A stretch of 64,000 nucleotides of DNA from contig NZ_CP166850.1 in NCBI RefSeq assembly GCF_041346945.1, forward strand, positions 806,001-870,000, given 5' to 3'. Under the pieces are notes generated by a model. That model was not told where the DNA came from. It searched no databases and saw only the letters and a program-made list of their open reading frames with translations. Positions 54,475 to 61,567 of this stretch are shown here, in pieces (the stretch's first letter is position 1; the number at the start of each line of letters is the position of its first letter). The position numbers and the translations under genes were made by a program. Source of the DNA: Amycolatopsis sp. cg9 (lineage in GTDB: Bacteria > Actinomycetota > Actinomycetes > Mycobacteriales > Pseudonocardiaceae).

Positions 54475-55475
54475 CAGCACCCCCACCGCAGCGCCGCGGT
54501 GTTGACCGGGGCGTCCCAGAGCTCGGTCAGCTCGTCGTCCAGTTTGAGCAACGTCAGACTCATCCCCTGCATCTCGAGGCTGGTGATGTACGGGCCGACC
54601 AGCCGGCGTTCGACCACGATCCCACGCTCGGCCAGCAGCCGCTCGGCGATGCCGTGGGCCAGGTACAGCTCGACGAGCGGGGTGCCGCCCATCGAGTTGG
54701 TGAACAGCAGGACGCGGTCGCCGGAGGTGAACGGGAGGTCCGTGACGACGGCCTCGACCATCCGCGCCACCAGGGCGTCGGCCGGTTCGAGCGGGATCCG
54801 CTCGCGGCCGGGCTCGCCGTGGATGCCGATGCCGAACTCGATTTCGCCGTCGTCGAGGTCGAAGCTCGGGGTGCCGGCGTGCGGCACGGTCGGCGCGGTC
54901 AGCGCCACGCCGATCGACCGCACCTGGCCGATCACCTTCTGCGCCAGCGCGGTCACGGCGTCGAGCGAGTCACCGCGCTCGGCGGCGGCGCCGGTGATCT
55001 TCTCCAGCAGCACGGTCCCGCCGACCCCGCGGCGGCCGGCGGTGTAGGTCGAGTCCTTAACCGCGACGTCGTCGTCGATCACGACGCTGCGCACGTCGAG
55101 GTCCTCGGCGGCGGCCAGCTCGGCGGCCGTCTCGAAGTTCAGCACGTCACCGGTGTAGTTCTTCACGATGAGCAGCGCGCCCGCGTCACCGGTGGTCGCG
55201 GTGACGGCGGCCTGCACGGCGTCCGGCGTCGGGGAGGTGAACACGGCGCCGGGGACGGCGGCGGCGAGCATCCCCCGGCCGACGAACCCGCCGTGCAGCG
55301 GTTCGTGCCCGGACCCGCCCCCGGAGATGACGGCGACCTTGCCCGCGACCGGCGCGTCGGCCCGGACGACGACATCGGGGTCGTACTGGACGCGCAGGAC
55401 GTCGGAGTGCGCGGCGGCGAGCCCCCGCAGCGACTCCGCGACCACGTTCGCCGGATCGTTGATGATCTTCTTCAC
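54474..55475 (-). CDS. dhaK: Dihydroxyacetone kinase substrate-binding subunit
   Basis: A 333-residue DhaK. SGGGSGHEPLHGGFVG near the N-terminus and GIGIHGEPG, whose His binds dihydroxyacetone covalently, are present. With DhaL and DhaM it makes dihydroxyacetone phosphate. The GTG at 55475 is preceded by GGAGG; a GTG five codons upstream is less likely. No glycerol dehydrogenase is adjacent. Confidence 0.95.
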   Translation of the reverse strand: MKKIINDPANVVAESLRGLAAAHSDVLRVQYDPDVVVRADAPVAGKVAVISGGGSGHEPLHGGFVGRGMLAAAVPGAVFTSPTPDAVQAAVTATTGDAGALLIVKNYTGDVLNFETAAELAAAEDLDVRSVVIDDDVAVKDSTYTAGRRGVGGTVLLEKITGAAAERGDSLDAVTALAQKVIGQVRSIGVALTAPTVPHAGTPSFDLDDGEIEFGIGIHGEPGRERIPLEPADALVARMVEAVVTDLPFTSGDRVLLFTNSMGGTPLVELYLAHGIAERLLAERGIVVERRLVGPYITSLEMQGMSLTLLKLDDELTELWDAPVNTAALRWGC

Positions 55476-55542
55476 GGCAACCTCCGGCACATCCGCGGGT
55501 GGGGTGCCCCCTTCCTACCTCGCCGCGCGGCCCACCGCCAGG

Positions 55543-56559
55543 TCAGGGCTTGGGGAGCTTCGTGACGACGTTTTTGGCGACGGTCACGGCTTTGCCGCAC
55601 GGGTCGTCGCTGCTCGCTTCGGCGGCGTAGCTGCTGTAGTCCACTTGGGCCAGTTCGACGTCGTCGCCCTGCCACGGCCGGTGCTGCCACTCCACCGTGC
55701 ACCGCGACGAGCTCGTGCTCGTCTGCTTCCGGAACGCCGTGACCCCGCCCCCGATGTCCACCTTGGAGTACCCGTCGCCGACGATCGGGGGCAGGCCAGG
55801 CAGGAACTTGACGGTGATCGTCGGATCCGTGCCGTTGCTCTTCCAGTCGCAGGAGTGCAAGCCCGAGGGCGCGGACTTGGCCGACGGCACGGCGGCGGCC
55901 ACCACCGAGGTGTCGGCCATCGCGCACGGGTCGGCGGTCAGCACGGTGCCCGGCGGCGTCGAGTACTTCTCCGGCGAGTTGTGCACCTTCTGGACGGCCG
56001 CTTCGAGCACCGCCTGCCCGGGACGGCACGGGTCGCCGGCGTAGGTGACCGACACGGTGATCGCCAGGTCCGGGTTCAGCGCCGTCATCGCCGCGACCAG
56101 GCAGTCGGTGTCGTCGGACTTGCTGACGCGCAGCGGCAGCCCGCCGATCTGGCCGGTCGTCTTGTCGGCCCGGGGCAGCAGGGTGTTCCCGAGCTCGACC
56201 TCGAACCGGATCTCCTTGCCGCCGGGGTCCTTCACCTTGTTGCTGCAGGTGTCGAAGGCGATCGACGACGGCGACGGGTCCTCCTCGACCGTGCCGAGGC
56301 CGAGCGCACCGAGGGCGTCCTTGGTCAGGAACTGGCACGGCTTGATCGCGCGCAGCGCGTTCGTCGCCACGGCGGCGTCGGTGATCGGGCCGTCGGTGGT
56401 CTGGCCGGTGCCGCCGGCCGCCGCGGGCACCGTCGTCCGGCCGAAGTTCGACCGGCCGAGATCCTGCCCGCACGCGGTCAGCGGCAGCGCGAGGACGATG
56501 ACCAGCAGGAACAGCTTCGGGAGACGGCGGCGCCGAGCGTCAAGGAGCACGCGATGCAC
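55543..56559 (-). CDS. DUF3558-type lipoprotein
   Basis: A 338-residue lipoprotein: signal peptide ending LALPLTAC, a Gly/Thr linker, then two DUF3558-like halves, AIKPCQFLTKDALGALGLG (near 75) and DPCAMADTSVVAAAV (near 205), each with paired cysteines. DUF3558 proteins are actinobacterial surface lipoproteins of unknown function. GTG at 56559; GTG 56550 possible. Confidence 0.85.
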   Translation of the reverse strand: MHRVLLDARRRRLPKLFLLVIVLALPLTACGQDLGRSNFGRTTVPAAAGGTGQTTDGPITDAAVATNALRAIKPCQFLTKDALGALGLGTVEEDPSPSSIAFDTCSNKVKDPGGKEIRFEVELGNTLLPRADKTTGQIGGLPLRVSKSDDTDCLVAAMTALNPDLAITVSVTYAGDPCRPGQAVLEAAVQKVHNSPEKYSTPPGTVLTADPCAMADTSVVAAAVPSAKSAPSGLHSCDWKSNGTDPTITVKFLPGLPPIVGDGYSKVDIGGGVTAFRKQTSTSSSRCTVEWQHRPWQGDDVELAQVDYSSYAAEASSDDPCGKAVTVAKNVVTKLPKP

Positions 56560-56597
56560 GGTAGCCGCACCTTCGCGCCGTTGTCCGGACAACCCGG

Positions 56598-56882
56598 CTA
56601 TTCGCCCGCGGCGGGCGCCGTGTCTTCCGTCTCGGTCGACGCCGGGACGACGAGCGGCCGCACCTTCGCCCAGATGATGAAGAGCGCGGACACGACCAGC
56701 ATGCCGATCCCGGCCCACAGGTTGATGTTGACGCCGGCCGCCTTCTGGATCTCCGCGTCGGAGGTGAAGCCGATGCCCATCACCGTCAGGATCACGCCGT
56801 ACACGCCGATCAGCAGGGCGATGATCAGCCGGATGTCGAAGGCGCCCGCCTTGTGCGGCCGTGCGCCGGACTCGGTAGCCAT
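56598..56882 (-). CDS. Small two-span membrane protein
   Basis: A 94-residue protein with two helices (about 18-38 and 53-73) and an acidic end. It follows the symporter by 10 bp and is probably its partner, as small membrane proteins accompany many SSS-type carriers. No family named. Confidence 0.7.
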   Translation of the reverse strand: MATESGARPHKAGAFDIRLIIALLIGVYGVILTVMGIGFTSDAEIQKAAGVNINLWAGIGMLVVSALFIIWAKVRPLVVPASTETEDTAPAAGE

Positions 56883-56892
56883 GCGTGCCTCC

Positions 56893-58590
56893 CTAGAAGA
56901 TGACGTTGAGGGCGATGGTCAGGATGAGCACGATGCCCGCGAGCAGGCCCGGCTTGCGGTACCAGCCCGCGTTCTCGCCGGTGTCGTCGTGCTTGAGCGA
57001 GTCGCGCGGGGTGAGCGAGTAGACCAGCCCGACGAGCTCCTCGTCCGGCTTCGGCTTGGTGGCCAGCGACACCACGACGCTCGCGACGATGTCGACGACG
57101 AACGCGGTCCCGGCGGCGACGAAGCTGATGCCCTGGCCGGTCAGGCCCAGCACCCCGGCCTGCGAGAGGCCCCACACCGTGATCGCCGACGCGGTACCGA
57201 GCACGAGGCCCAGCCAGCCGGCGTGCGGCGTCATCCGCTTCCAGAACATGCCGAGGATGAACGTCGCGAACAGCGGCGCGTTGAAGAACGAGAACAGGTC
57301 CTGCAGGTAGTTCAGGATGTTGCCGGAGTTCGACGCGATGAACGCGGTGCCGATCGCGAGGATCGTGCCGCCCGAGGTCACCACGCGGCCCAGGTTCAGG
57401 TAGTAGTGGTCCGGCTTGTCCTTCTTCACGTACGTCTGCCAGATGTCGTACGTGAACACGGTGTTGAACGAGCTCAGGTTCGCCGCCATGCCCGCCATGA
57501 ACGAGGCCAGCAGGCCGGCGATGGCGATGCCGAGCATGCCGTTCGGGAGCAGGTCGCGCATCAGCAGCAGGAGGGCGTTGTTGAACGTGACGCCGCTTTC
57601 GGCCTTGCCGCCGTCGAGCAGCACCTGCTTGTCCTTGACGTACTCGGACACGCTGACCGCGGCGATCATGCCGGGGATGATGACGATGAACGGGACCAGC
57701 ATCTTCGGGAAGGCGCCGATGATCGGCGTCCGGCGGGCGGCGGACATGCTCTTCGACGCCATCGCGCGCTGGACCTCGACGAAGTTCGTCGTCCAGTAGC
57801 CGAAGGAGAGGACGAAGCCGAGACCGAACACGATGCCCAGCACCGAAAGGATGCTGTTGCCGAAGCCGGTCAAGTTGTCGCCGGGCCAGGAGTGCAGCTG
57901 CGCGTCCCCGCCGGGGCTGTTGGTGACCTTGTCGACCAGGCCCTGCCAGCCGCCGACCTTGACCAGGCCGATGATCGTCAGCGGCACCAGCGCGATGACG
58001 ATCACGAAGAACTGCAGGACCTCGTTGTAGATGGCCGCGGACAGGCCGCCGAGCGCGGTGTAGGAGAGCACGATCGCGGCGGCGACGATGATCGACACCC
58101 AGAGCGGCCAGCCGAGCAGCAGGTTCACGACGCTGGCCAGCAGGAACAGGTTCGCGCCCGCGATCAGGATCTGAGCGGCGGCGAAGCTGATGCCGTTGAC
58201 CAGGTGGGCCGGCTTGCCGAAGCGCCGGCGCATGAACTCGGGGACGCTGCGAACCTTGGAGCCGTAGTAGAACGGCATCATCACGATGCCGAGGAACAGC
58301 ATCGCCGGGATGGCGCCGATCCAGAAGTAGTGGACGGTCGGCAGGCCGTACTGGGCGCCGTTGGCCGACATGCCCATGACCTCGACCGCGCCGAGGTTCG
58401 CCGAAATGAACGCCAGGCCGGTGACCCAGGCGGGCAGCGACCGGCCGGACAGGAAGAAGTCGAGGCTGCTGGAGACCTGCCGCCGCGCCAGGTACCCGAT
58501 GCCGAGCACCAGCACGAAGTAGAACGCCAGCTCGATGTAGTCGATCGCGCTCGCGTCGAGTCGCAGGTTCGCATCGGCTAGGACGAGCAC
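56893..58590 (-). CDS. Solute:sodium symporter (SSS family)
   Basis: A 565-residue, about 14-helix symporter. SSS marks include SSSLDFFLSGRSLPAWVTGL near the N-terminus and GLSAAIYNEVLQFFVIV. Substrate could be a sugar, myo-inositol, acetate or other organic acid. The GTG at 58590 has GGGAGG 8 nt upstream; the GTG at 58599 overlaps that site and is less likely. Transcribed with the small membrane protein. Confidence 0.92.
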   Translation of the reverse strand: MLVLADANLRLDASAIDYIELAFYFVLVLGIGYLARRQVSSSLDFFLSGRSLPAWVTGLAFISANLGAVEVMGMSANGAQYGLPTVHYFWIGAIPAMLFLGIVMMPFYYGSKVRSVPEFMRRRFGKPAHLVNGISFAAAQILIAGANLFLLASVVNLLLGWPLWVSIIVAAAIVLSYTALGGLSAAIYNEVLQFFVIVIALVPLTIIGLVKVGGWQGLVDKVTNSPGGDAQLHSWPGDNLTGFGNSILSVLGIVFGLGFVLSFGYWTTNFVEVQRAMASKSMSAARRTPIIGAFPKMLVPFIVIIPGMIAAVSVSEYVKDKQVLLDGGKAESGVTFNNALLLLMRDLLPNGMLGIAIAGLLASFMAGMAANLSSFNTVFTYDIWQTYVKKDKPDHYYLNLGRVVTSGGTILAIGTAFIASNSGNILNYLQDLFSFFNAPLFATFILGMFWKRMTPHAGWLGLVLGTASAITVWGLSQAGVLGLTGQGISFVAAGTAFVVDIVASVVVSLATKPKPDEELVGLVYSLTPRDSLKHDDTGENAGWYRKPGLLAGIVLILTIALNVIF

Positions 58591-58788
58591 CCGACCCACC
58601 TCCCGGCAGTACCTCTTGAATTGGACAATATCCGACAGGAATCACCATCGTCCCGTCGGATCCGGACAGTACTGCATGGATTCAGGGTCGGCACGCTGAC
58701 CTGTCCAAAGTGGCCGGAGGGCGCGCCTCCCCCGGCATCTACCAGGGGAAACGCGCCCTCGTTTGCGCGCCGCGGGAGCGGCAGCCGA
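58591..58788. other. Intergenic promoter region of symporter
   Basis: This 198-bp gap contains a less GC-rich stretch (58616-58640; TTGAATTGGACAATATCC) suited to the symporter promoter on the minus strand. No gene is seen. Confidence 0.4.
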
Positions 58789-59565
58789 TCACCGGTCGGT
58801 CGGGACGGCGATCTCACCTTCTTCGTCGATCAGCCGCGCCAGCACGGCGTCGGGCAGGTAGGTCCGGTGCGGGTAGCCCGGGCCCCAGGAGTTGAGGATC
58901 GGCACGGCGCCGAGCTCGTCGGCACGCGGGTTGCCGAGCACGGCGTGCACGTCGTCGACCGACTTGGCCCAGCGGAACGCCTTGATGCCCTGCTTGGCTT
59001 CCGGCGCGTACTGCTCGCGCTTCTGCCAGTCGTCGCTGCCGTAGGAGTCGTCCCACAGGACGTGCCCGGCTTCCGCGAGCACCTCGGCCGCGGCGCGGAC
59101 GGACGTGCCGTTGTCGTCGCCGGGGTTGGTCTCGGGCCACTCGTCGCGCTTCTTGGCCGAGTCCCACAGCCAGCGGGCGGCGTACTCGCTGCCGTTGAAG
59201 ATCGACATGCACCGCGACCACCCGAACCCGACGCAGGCGCCTTCGCGGCCCTGGTCGTAGAACGCGTACCAGGCGTCGGTGTCCGGCGTCCCGCCCGGTT
59301 CGAGGCACACGCAGTGCCCGCCGCGGACCCGGCCGAGCTTCTTGTCGCCGGCCTTCGCGATGAAGAACTCGCCGGAGGTCTCGTCCTGCTCGGGCTCGTC
59401 GAACGCGGAGTACCAGTTGACCCCGATCACGACCGGCGCCCGGGTCGGCCGGTCGTCGTCGGCGAGCGCGGACAGCGGATACCTTTCCACGTGCCGCCAG
59501 TCGTCCGGAATGAACCGCCCCAGCCGCGGGTCGGCCGGATCGGAACCGAGTGGGCGATAACGCAT
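58789..59565 (-). CDS. Papain-like C1 peptidase with rearranged catalytic order
   Basis: A 258-residue protein with all papain-type pieces, but out of order. In normal C1 peptidases the Cys block comes first, then His, then Asn. Here the His strand (PVVIGVNWYSAFD...RGGHCVC, H84) precedes the Cys block (DQGREGACVGFGW, Q105 and C111), and the Asn motif NSWGPGY (N225) and a LIDEEGEIAV ending close the chain. The fragments fit actinobacterial and phage C1-type proteins well. No signal peptide. ATG at 59565 has a GGAGGAGGAAG ribosome site. Flanked by gene-poor DNA. Confidence 0.72.
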   Translation of the reverse strand: MRYRPLGSDPADPRLGRFIPDDWRHVERYPLSALADDDRPTRAPVVIGVNWYSAFDEPEQDETSGEFFIAKAGDKKLGRVRGGHCVCLEPGGTPDTDAWYAFYDQGREGACVGFGWSRCMSIFNGSEYAARWLWDSAKKRDEWPETNPGDDNGTSVRAAAEVLAEAGHVLWDDSYGSDDWQKREQYAPEAKQGIKAFRWAKSVDDVHAVLGNPRADELGAVPILNSWGPGYPHRTYLPDAVLARLIDEEGEIAVPTDR

Positions 59566-59980
59566 GACTTCCTCCTCCGTGCAGGCGAAAACGCGCGCAC
59601 ACCGGCCGGCTGGCGTGCGCACACCGAGCTCGAAGGCGGACTGAAACGTTGGCACGACGAAGAAAGACGGCCGAGCGCACCACCCTCCGGCCACACCGGA
59701 CGCACCGGCGGAACCCCTCGAATCGAGTGTGCCACGAGCACGCGGAATAAGATCCCGGACTCACCCGAACAGCGCAGGAATCCCGCGAAAAAAGACCAGG
59801 TCACAGCGCCGCGACCGATCACGTCAATGATTTCCTTGCGGAGTAATCGAGCCGGAATCAGATACCGGAATTCGGCATCGATCCGGTATCGGCGCGGAGA
59901 ACGATTACCGCACGGGCGCGTAACGGCGAAGCACCCCCCGGCGACTCCGTCTGCCGTAGCCGCAGCCGAAGGGAGCCCGG
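59566..59980. other. Intergenic region without a recognised gene
   Basis: 415 bp between the peptidase start and the next plus-strand gene. The first 150 bp hold the peptidase promoter region; 59740-59900 is less GC-rich (runs such as GCGAAAAAAG). No repeats, RNA or credible small gene were found. Confidence 0.4.
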
Positions 59981-60673
59981 ATGCCACCGTGGGCCGTAGT
60001 CGTAGTCCTCCTCGCGATCTTCGCCGGGGCAGTGGGCGTGAAGGTGACGCGTTCCGCGACGCTGGCGGGCGCGGACCTCGAAGAGGGGGTCATCGCGGCC
60101 TTCGAAGACCTGCGGCTGACCGCGACCGCCGTCGTCGAAGGCACCGGTGGCCGCGCGCTGCGCTACCCGGTGGCGGGCCTGTCCGCGCGAGTCGAGATCC
60201 GGAGCGCCGAACACAGCCGGGTCACCGTGCCGAGGGTGCTGCTGCTCGGGCTCCTGGCGCTGGCCGTCAAGAAACGGGGCTACGAGAGCGAAGCCCACCT
60301 CGTCGTCGAAGGCCCCGGGATGACGGTCGAACGGGCGGTCAGCCTCCGGAAGCGCCCGGACGCGGCCGCGGCGGGCCGGGAGTTCGCCGCGCGGCTGAAC
60401 CAGCTCGGCGGGCAGCCCGGCGCCGGTGACACCACGCGTTCCGGGCCGCCGGACGACCGCGAACGGTTCGACGTCGCGCTGCTCGACGCCGGTGCGCGCC
60501 AGGTCGAGGTCGTCCGGGTGGTCCGCCGTCTCGTGCGGGGCATCGGCTTGCTCGACGCCAAGGAACTGGTCACCGGCACTCCGTCGATCCTGCTGGAGCA
60601 GGTGCCGGAGCCCCAGGCCGAAGCGGCCCGTGACGAGCTCGAGAAGGCCGGGGCCGCCGTCGAACTGCTGTGA
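59981..60673 (+). CDS. Membrane-anchored protein with ribosomal L7/L12 C-terminal-like domain
   Basis: A 230-residue protein. An N-terminal hydrophobic segment (about 3-20) anchors it; a second hydrophobic stretch lies near 88-96. The last ~68 residues (FDVALLDAGARQVEVVRVVR...LLDAKELVTGTPSILLEQ...ELEKAGAAVELL) match the L7/L12 CTD pattern of FDVxL-x-x-AG, VVR, LDAKELV and EKAGA-x-VEL. L7/L12 CTDs recruit translation factors; here the role is unknown. AAGGGAG precedes the ATG. Confidence 0.75.
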   Translation: MPPWAVVVVLLAIFAGAVGVKVTRSATLAGADLEEGVIAAFEDLRLTATAVVEGTGGRALRYPVAGLSARVEIRSAEHSRVTVPRVLLLGLLALAVKKRGYESEAHLVVEGPGMTVERAVSLRKRPDAAAAGREFAARLNQLGGQPGAGDTTRSGPPDDRERFDVALLDAGARQVEVVRVVRRLVRGIGLLDAKELVTGTPSILLEQVPEPQAEAARDELEKAGAAVELL

Positions 60674-60675
60674 GC

Positions 60676-60882
60676 TCAGCTCTCCACGCGGCGGAAGCGC
60701 GGCACCGGGCCACCGTCCGTCGGTACCGTCTCGGTGAACATCGCCTTCGGGCGCACCCACAGCCCGCGCTCGCCGTACAGCGCCCGGTACACCACGAGCT
60801 CTTCCTCGGTCTCGCTGTGCCGGGCCACGCCGAGCACCTCGTACTCCCCGCCCTTGTAGTGGACGTACCGCCCGGGGAGCAC
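60676..60882 (-). CDS. DUF1653 family protein
   Basis: A 68-residue protein of the small DUF1653 family (GRYVHYKGGEYEVLGVARHSETEE, then VVYRALYG and RPKAMF). Function unknown. The GTG overlaps nothing; it begins one base after the nucS stop on the same strand and is probably cotranscribed. Confidence 0.93.
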   Translation of the reverse strand: MLPGRYVHYKGGEYEVLGVARHSETEEELVVYRALYGERGLWVRPKAMFTETVPTDGGPVPRFRRVES

Positions 60883-60883
60883 C

Positions 60884-61543
60884 TCAGAACAGCCTGAACT
60901 CGTCGGACTCGATGCCGCGCAGCTCGTCGTAGTCCAGGGTCAGGCACCGGATGCCGCGGTCCTCCGCCAGGGTCCGGGCCTGCGGCTTGATGATCTGGGC
61001 CGCGAACACGCCCTGCACCGGGGCCAGCAGCGGGTCGCGGTTGAGCAGCTCCAGGTAGCGCGTCAGCTGCTCGACGCCGTCGATTTCGCCGCGGCGCTTG
61101 ATCTCCACCGCCACCGAACGGCCGTCGGCGTCGCGGGCCATGATGTCGACCGGGCCGATCGCCGTCGGGAATTCGCGGCGGACCAGGGTGTAGCCGTCGC
61201 CGAGGGTCTTGATGTGCTCGGCCAGCAGTTCCTGCAGGTGTGCCTCGACGCCGTCCTTCTGCAGGCCCGGTTCCGCGCCGAGGGCCTGGGTGTAGTCGTG
61301 GAAGACCTCGTCGATCGAGATCACCAGCTTCTCGCCCTGCTTGTTCTCGACGATCCAGAGCTTGCCGTCCTCGATCAGCCAGCAGGGTGGGCTCATCCAG
61401 TTCAACGGCTTGTACGCGCGGTCGTCGGAGTGGACCGACACCGAGCCGTCGGACTTCGCGAGCAGCAGGCGGGTGGCCATCGGCAGGTGGGCGGTGAGCC
61501 GGCCGGCGTAGTCGACCTGGCACCGCGCGATCACGAGACGCAC
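60884..61543 (-). CDS. nucS: Mismatch-specific endonuclease NucS/EndoMS
   Basis: A 219-residue nuclease. Catalytic residues D133, E147 and K149 (GPVDIMARD...VAVEIKRRG) have the exact spacing of characterised NucS enzymes. NucS cleaves mismatched DNA and replaces MutS/MutL repair in actinobacteria. GTG start at 61543; no Shine-Dalgarno is visible. A sliding-clamp-binding tail would be expected at the C-terminal SDEFRLF end. Confidence 0.96.
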
Positions 61544-61567
61544 CCGAGGAGGGTAGGACAGGTCCGG

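Follow-up and report, generated by a model that had tools for sequence, protein, structure and literature searches.

Permuted DNA methyltransferases are one precedent for enzymes with a rearranged order of elements. Non-circular permutations of proteins have been termed rare (PMC10085705, PMC3863775), and a further non-circular case consists of a structural match without sequence likeness (PMC2096629), as far as the accessible parts of these papers go. For papain-like folds, the accessible part of a 2023 survey describes permutations of the helix alone, of the helix together with strand 1', or of the strands of OTU, SdeA, agglutinin and viral enzymes (PMC10318531). Tailed phages took up xylellain-type genes according to a survey of the papain family, whose accessible text nowhere uses the word permutation (PMC10380794). 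Here we describe a peptidase gene at positions 58789–59565 (minus strand) of a 64,000-nucleotide stretch from Amycolatopsis sp. cg9 (assembly GCF_041346945.1, contig NZ_CP166850.1, positions 806,001 to 870,000), hereafter the window. On the basis of homology, a structure model and coevolution, the gene very probably encodes a papain-like intracellular cysteine peptidase of the xylellain/C1 type, in which the His unit (residues 43–88) is transposed and the papain active site rebuilt. A literature search, limited to the accessible text of open-access papers, found no description of this His-Cys-Asn arrangement.

The 258-residue window protein (labelled P0002) carries the motifs PVVIGVNWYSAFD...GGH84CVC, DQ105GREGAC111VGF and N225SWGPGY in that order. 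The catalytic order is His84-Cys111-Asn225, which departs from the Cys-His-Asn order of family C1 in the strict sense. A previous reading of the window from its letters alone (the sequence-only reading) had described this order with H84, Q105/C111 and N225, without naming the strand, and the translation of 58789–59565 on the minus strand bears it out. The features of the gene are the following.

58789..59565, minus strand: peptidase gene, 258 amino acids plus stop, ATG start (translated reading frame, homologues, alignment).
59571..59578, minus strand: ribosome-binding site GGAGGAGG, 5 bases 5' of the ATG (sequence).
59440..59565, minus strand: N-cap, residues 1–42, with the LGRFIPDDWRHVERYPL core; N-terminal in both orders and common to the canonical siblings (alignment).
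59302..59439, minus strand: transposed segment, residues 43–88, predicted as strand 45–52 (PVVIGVNWY), loop, and strand 80–88 with the His (model and sibling comparison).
59314..59316, minus strand: codon of His84, putative catalytic base (translation, alignment conservation).
59260..59301, minus strand: linker, residues 89–102, from the moved segment to the Cys block (papain alignment, sibling comparison).
58912..59259, minus strand: Cys block and helices of the left domain, residues 103–218 (model, profile alignment).
59251..59253, minus strand: codon of Gln105, putative oxyanion-hole residue (alignment conservation).
59233..59235, minus strand: codon of Cys111, the putative nucleophile, with which helix 111–124 begins (alignment, model).
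58792..58911, minus strand: residues 219–258, with the Asn strand 220–224, NSWG, strands 235–238 and 251–255, and the C-tail GEIAVPTDR (alignment, model).
58891..58893, minus strand: codon of Asn225, putative third catalytic residue (translation, alignment conservation).

A protein search with the window protein returned 1331 homologues at an expect value (E) <=0.001. Homologues with the same order, which the sequence-only reading had proposed to look for, were found: His stands before Cys in all 120 that were listed among the 1331 (117 sorted by motif pattern, and three with an accidental extra GxH that were sorted as permuted too). Every name shown among these 120 is 'hypothetical protein' or 'uncharacterized'. 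Furthermore, a profile built from 13 phage versions found 1766 homologues among 7997 candidates scored, and the best 120 listed were all permuted, five of them assigned by eye after escaping the motif pattern. The residues H84, Q105, C111, N225, S226, W227 and G228 are invariant and colinear in a 24-sequence alignment, and an 83-row alignment that reaches down to ~40% identity has 20 invariant columns, with G82, H84, Q105, G109, C111, W227 and G228 among them. Across 294 permuted rows (285 distinct, with the window sequence counted twice), Cys, His and Gln are kept in 294/294, counts that rest on motif-split sequences (480/482 passed), which a few odd members could escape. Asn is kept in 292/294, its place being taken by Thr in P0268 and by Gln in L054. 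Two rows, L059 (in two frames that were not joined) and L048 (truncated), were left out of the counts from motif-splitting on. A second set of viral loci added 20 of its 80 loci, many of the others repeating earlier contigs or matching partially.

The phage protein L051 has the ordinary Cys-His-Asn order, and a search with it gave 2038 homologues, of which the best 120 listed are all canonical (the motif pattern sorted 109, ten were assigned by eye, and one carries an accidental extra GxH). The N-terminal pattern LGR..P.D..H is present in 255/294 permuted and 117/134 sibling canonical rows, and in 1/52 other canonical rows; the corresponding numbers for the C-terminal pattern GE....TDR are 272/294, 118/134 and 0/52. 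Judged from these sequences, the permuted rows and the canonical sibling clade (L051, P0123–P0242) share their ancestry and their end caps. When the permuted profile A3 was aligned to the canonical profile A4 with hhalign (E 1.7e-50), the His unit stayed unaligned in both. The similarity of the moved unit spans approximately V/T-P-V-V-I-G to GGHCVC-L (residues 43–88) and fades on either side. At the old site, the hairpin loop ahead of NSWG seems to be retained (GASDRRQAV in L051, RADELGAV in the window protein), and hhalign aligns it likewise. These alignments indicate that ~46 residues (43–88) have moved non-circularly, from A-C-H-T to A-H-C-T, and because the N-cap and the C-tail keep their ends this is not a rotation. 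The segment transposition suggested in the sequence-only reading is thus supported by the same N-cap, the same C-tail, the one internal block that moved, and canonical siblings that are up to 71% identical (P0314 versus P0136, the nearest permuted/canonical pair, with the Cys, His and Asn blocks set in one order). Its general statement that phage and actinobacterial C1 peptidases keep Cys-His-Asn holds for three actinobacterial relatives and for 65 of the 98 viral rows examined, but not for this large permuted group, to which the other 33 viral rows belong.

No duplication intermediate, with one His segment before and another after the Cys block, was present among 479 split sequences (three of 482 were unsplittable in this check). 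A split or two-gene form was considered and rejected: weak matches among L141–L171 covered only residues 11–68 of A5 and resembled a His-only protein, and the 21 of 31 loci that were read all held canonical-order C1 proteins. The canonical-order sibling P0241 carries Leu at the position of the catalytic His (GGLALC) while Cys and Asn are kept, and by its residues it is likely an inactive member of the family.

The AlphaFold2 model of the window protein, a monomer, has a predicted local distance difference test (pLDDT) of 90.7 and a predicted template modelling score (pTM) of 0.90; the sequences supplied for the structure models, 83 (A3) and 28 (A4), were hand-chosen. The modelled fold is papain-like, as in clan CA, and Cys111 opens helix 111–124, which puts the nucleophile at the N-terminus of the core helix as in that clan. 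The residue set of clan CA (Cys, His, third polar residue, oxyanion Gln) is present in the protein. Residues 89–258 of the model align to papain (1ppn) with 2.8 A over 146 residues, residue 89 lying opposite papain residue 6, and the best structural match of the model is xylellain (3ois). The best Foldseek template modelling (TM) scores are ~0.4, as expected if the order of the elements differs. By sequence, the canonical profile A4 matches xylellain 3ois best (E 4.3e-20) and also cathepsins, the permuted profile A3 gave among solved structures only a weak match to 3ois (E 0.0056), and the window protein alone gave only chance matches to solved structures. Distant canonical relatives, L066 and L021, reach PF00112 with 23.6 and 24.0 bits (cut-off 20.7), and PHROG 16701, named 'peptidase', matches residues 102–211 of the window protein, the Cys part, with E 2.6e-14. 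The sequence-only reading had taken the DQG block for the papain Cys block, and the contrary view is contradicted by the A3/A4 alignment, the match of A4 to 3ois and the superposition on papain.

Mean-field direct-coupling analysis was applied to the 294 permuted rows (effective 145) and separately to 186 canonical rows (effective 148). In the permuted set the top-ranked pair is C85-G115, formed by the residue that follows His and the fourth one after Cys; its homologue, G57-C185, ranks first in the canonical set. C/G, A/S and A/A dominate this pair in both sets (244, 19 and 13 of 294; 78, 28 and 49 of 186). The pair V86-I223 (permuted, z 4.9) corresponds to V186-F200 (canonical, z 9.2), which is the expected pairing of the His strand with the Asn strand, and the expected antidiagonal, 309, is the strongest in the permuted set. 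Couplings between the moved unit and the rest correlate between the sets with 0.18 (Pearson), and with <=0.053 when the mapping is shifted by 1–12 residues; the pairs inside the unmoved part correlate with 0.16. Eight of the 20 strongest permuted pairs between the moved unit and the rest fall in the canonical top 2% and the other 12 outside, whereas over 40 shifts the average was 0.9 and the highest count 4. Since the top coevolving pairs of the two orders are homologous, the moved strand has most likely kept its former packing against Cys helix and Asn strand.

Model and coevolution together suggest that the moved strand would fold back onto Cys helix and Asn strand, and that the papain active site would thereby be rebuilt from Cys111, His84, Asn225 and Gln105. 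By homology to the mechanism of papain, from which the roles of Cys, His, Asn and Gln are known, Cys111 would attack the peptide bond, His84 would take the proton, Asn225 would orient His84, and Gln105 would stand in the oxyanion hole.

The points that weigh against this interpretation come from the profile libraries, the coevolution analysis and the trees. Pfam gave no family for the window protein at E<=1, PF00112 included, and none for its close siblings L051, P0136 and P0314, and NCBIfam gave no match for the window protein. The coupling correlations are low in absolute terms, the strongest antidiagonal of the canonical set is 389 with the expected 386 second, and shared ancestry may inflate the agreement between the sets, though hardly its dependence on the exact register. 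The sequence-only reading had left two outcomes, an active peptidase or a scrambled inactive relative. The latter would be a pseudoenzyme retained for binding and not for cleavage, and P0241, having lost its His, speaks for likely inactive members in the wider family. Pseudoenzymes, however, usually lose catalytic residues, whereas here Cys, His and Gln are kept in every permuted row and Asn in all but two, in rows reaching ~40% identity to the window protein, and the gene is under purifying selection; we consider a pseudoenzyme improbable. The kept residues, the confident model and the conserved coevolving contacts favour the active outcome. A segment-swapped dimer, in which each chain would lend its moved segment to the active site of its partner, is conceivable in that the model is a monomer and coevolution is blind to the difference between contacts within and between chains. 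With a median of ~22 residues separating the GGH and DQG motifs in the permuted rows, and a monomer model that is confident, its chances appear small. An ordinary circular permutation of the papain fold, in the style of the LRAT/YiiX-type NlpC/P60 proteins, has a known parallel in papain-like domains with the Cys shifted towards the C-terminus, as the accessible part of the source describes (PMC3142127). It is highly unlikely here: A-H-C-T is no rotation of A-C-H-T, the N-cap and the C-tail stand at their own ends, and NSWG stays C-terminal to Cys. An assembly error, a chimera or a chance resemblance of motifs is refuted, and its probability negligible, by the recurrence of the order in 18 Amycolatopsis assemblies, one Saccharopolyspora assembly, the 33 permuted of 98 viral rows and the full-length matches in 14 of 298 genomes of the order.

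The number of times that the order changed was considered on three quick trees of reordered sequences, with 183, 109 and 99 rows. Long branches were dropped from the 109-row tree (5/114 rows) and the 99-row tree (15/114 rows), and two of 482 sequences (P0230 and P0241, canonical by eye) could not be split for the 109-row set. Permuted rows group with the sibling canonical rows in a single clade, from which other C1 proteins are separate; its support in the Shimodaira-Hasegawa-like approximate likelihood ratio test (SH-aLRT) is 99 (109 rows) and 100 (99 rows). The order label needs two changes on all three trees, and on the 99-row tree the starred branches force two, which speaks for an order that changed more than once, by two transpositions or by a transposition and a return, possibly via recombination between phage genes. 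The internal support of the trees is poor, with 17/180, 8/106 and 9/96 branches starred. When the 38 permuted rows of the 99-row set were held together, the resulting tree was 98 log units better than the free search, with an approximately unbiased test p value (p-AU) of 0.899. For this reason a single origin of the permuted order is preferred, though not proven; a return to the old order would also be mechanistically harder, and we regard repeated changes as an unlikely alternative. With a single origin, one transposition, most likely in an ancestor shared with the phage proteins, would have taken the His-bearing beta-loop-beta unit (43–88) out of its site directly ahead of the NSWG strand and inserted it between N-cap and Cys helix.

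That 58789–59565 is a real gene follows from its ribosome-binding site, its third-position GC of 94%, and a ratio of nonsynonymous to synonymous substitution rates (dN/dS) of 0.09–0.28 against five Amycolatopsis orthologues, which indicates purifying selection. A GGAGG-type site precedes the ATG in the loci L001, L002, L011 and L013 too. The gene is single-copy in the 10.6 Mb host genome. By inspection the N-terminus of its product has no hydrophobic stretch, and a cytosolic, intracellular enzyme is therefore likely. Long antisense frames lie opposite real genes at 58621–60429 (plus strand, 602 aa) and 55168–58581 (plus strand, 1137 aa), probably as an effect of high-GC codon bias.

A search with one genome per species, which reaches only close relatives, gave 19 host loci, all permuted, in 18 Amycolatopsis assemblies and Saccharopolyspora rosea. 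Within the order 22 of 298 genomes matched, 14 of them full-length, namely ten from the 11 listed genomes of the same genus, with the window's own among them, and four from elsewhere in the family. Across the phylum 8 of 396 genomes matched, and only the window's own match spans nearly the whole profile. In all 18 Amycolatopsis loci the gene is flanked by an SSF symporter gene and, on the opposite side, by nucS (in L007 just 19% of nucS matched), and these constant flanks argue for a stable chromosomal gene and not a prophage gene. On the Amycolatopsis chromosome the gene is syntenic and subject to purifying selection.

A gene divergent from that of the peptidase, at 59981–60673 (plus strand), encodes a ribosomal L7/L12 C-terminal domain (PF00542) behind a hydrophobic N-terminus, the latter seen by inspection. 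It was found by tblastn in just two of the 18 Amycolatopsis loci (L002, L010) and is therefore variable, although the neighbourhood is otherwise conserved. At 60676–61549 (minus strand) a DUF1653 protein is encoded next to the endonuclease NucS; DUF1653 occurs near the peptidase gene in 14/18 Amycolatopsis loci.

The permuted gene is widespread on phage contigs. On 14 of them it is accompanied by terminase, portal, major head, tail and endolysin genes, 14 of the 40 neighbouring proteins being without any PHROG. It adjoins portal or terminase genes in L024, L030, L025 and L026, and in other phage contigs head or tail genes stand near it. In L025 and L026 (~3.9–5.6 kb) it lies between the genes of the terminase large subunit and the portal, and in L044, L047 and L129 near an endolysin gene. 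Matches of the window protein in named phages are partial, covering its residues 104–211 or 104–246 in six Streptomyces phage records. The gene neighbours do not fix a function for the permuted peptidase, and a capsid maturation protease, an idea that came from L024 and L030, was rejected since the position of the gene varies among phages. As a guess, the phages may use it as a late-region peptidase, which Amycolatopsis could later have kept as its own domesticated chromosomal gene of a housekeeping type.

Taken together, it is quite likely that a single event transposed a segment non-circularly within a catalytic domain, with the active site kept working and siblings of the two orders still ~70% identical, and that the product spread in phages and became fixed in Amycolatopsis. 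Enzymes of this kind are missed by motif-order searches and profile libraries (Pfam, NCBIfam). Papain and PF00112 (Peptidase_C1) have the same catalytic letters in a different residue order, and PF00112 does not match the window protein. Xylellain-type bacterial C1 peptidases (PDB 3ois) and canonical phage C1 proteins resemble it in the Cys helix, Gln, Asn strand, NSWG and helices, but their His lies between Cys and Asn, whereas in the window protein it precedes Cys in a transposed 46-residue unit. The circularly permuted NlpC/P60 proteins (LRAT-like, YaeF/YiiX-like) are also papain-like with Cys after other core elements; in the accessible description their Cys is near the C-terminus through rotation (PMC3142127), whereas in the window protein the Asn strand and NSWG follow Cys and the termini are unchanged. 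Strand-permuted OTUD5 and SdeA share a non-rotational rearrangement of the sheet and the same superfamily, but their strands are reversed or missing, and the accessible text mentions no unpermuted sibling that is ~70% identical (PMC10318531). The major capsid protein of BPP-1, with a non-circularly permuted HK97 fold, is likewise a natural case in a phage protein; it has a different fold and, according to the accessible text, no recognizable sequence similarity to other HK97-like proteins and hence an obscured origin, whereas here both forms are recognizable homologues (PMC3863775). If our interpretation is true, this family would be among the cleanest cases known for watching the rewiring of a fold. 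As far as the accessible text tells, the partners in the earlier non-circular cases are related by structure and not by recognizable sequence (PMC3863775, PMC2096629), whereas here both orders are recognizable siblings. The points of excision and insertion can therefore be located with a precision of a few residues, the ancestral enzymes lend themselves to comparison with the derived ones, and the tolerance of a fold to the move of a catalytic strand is directly testable.
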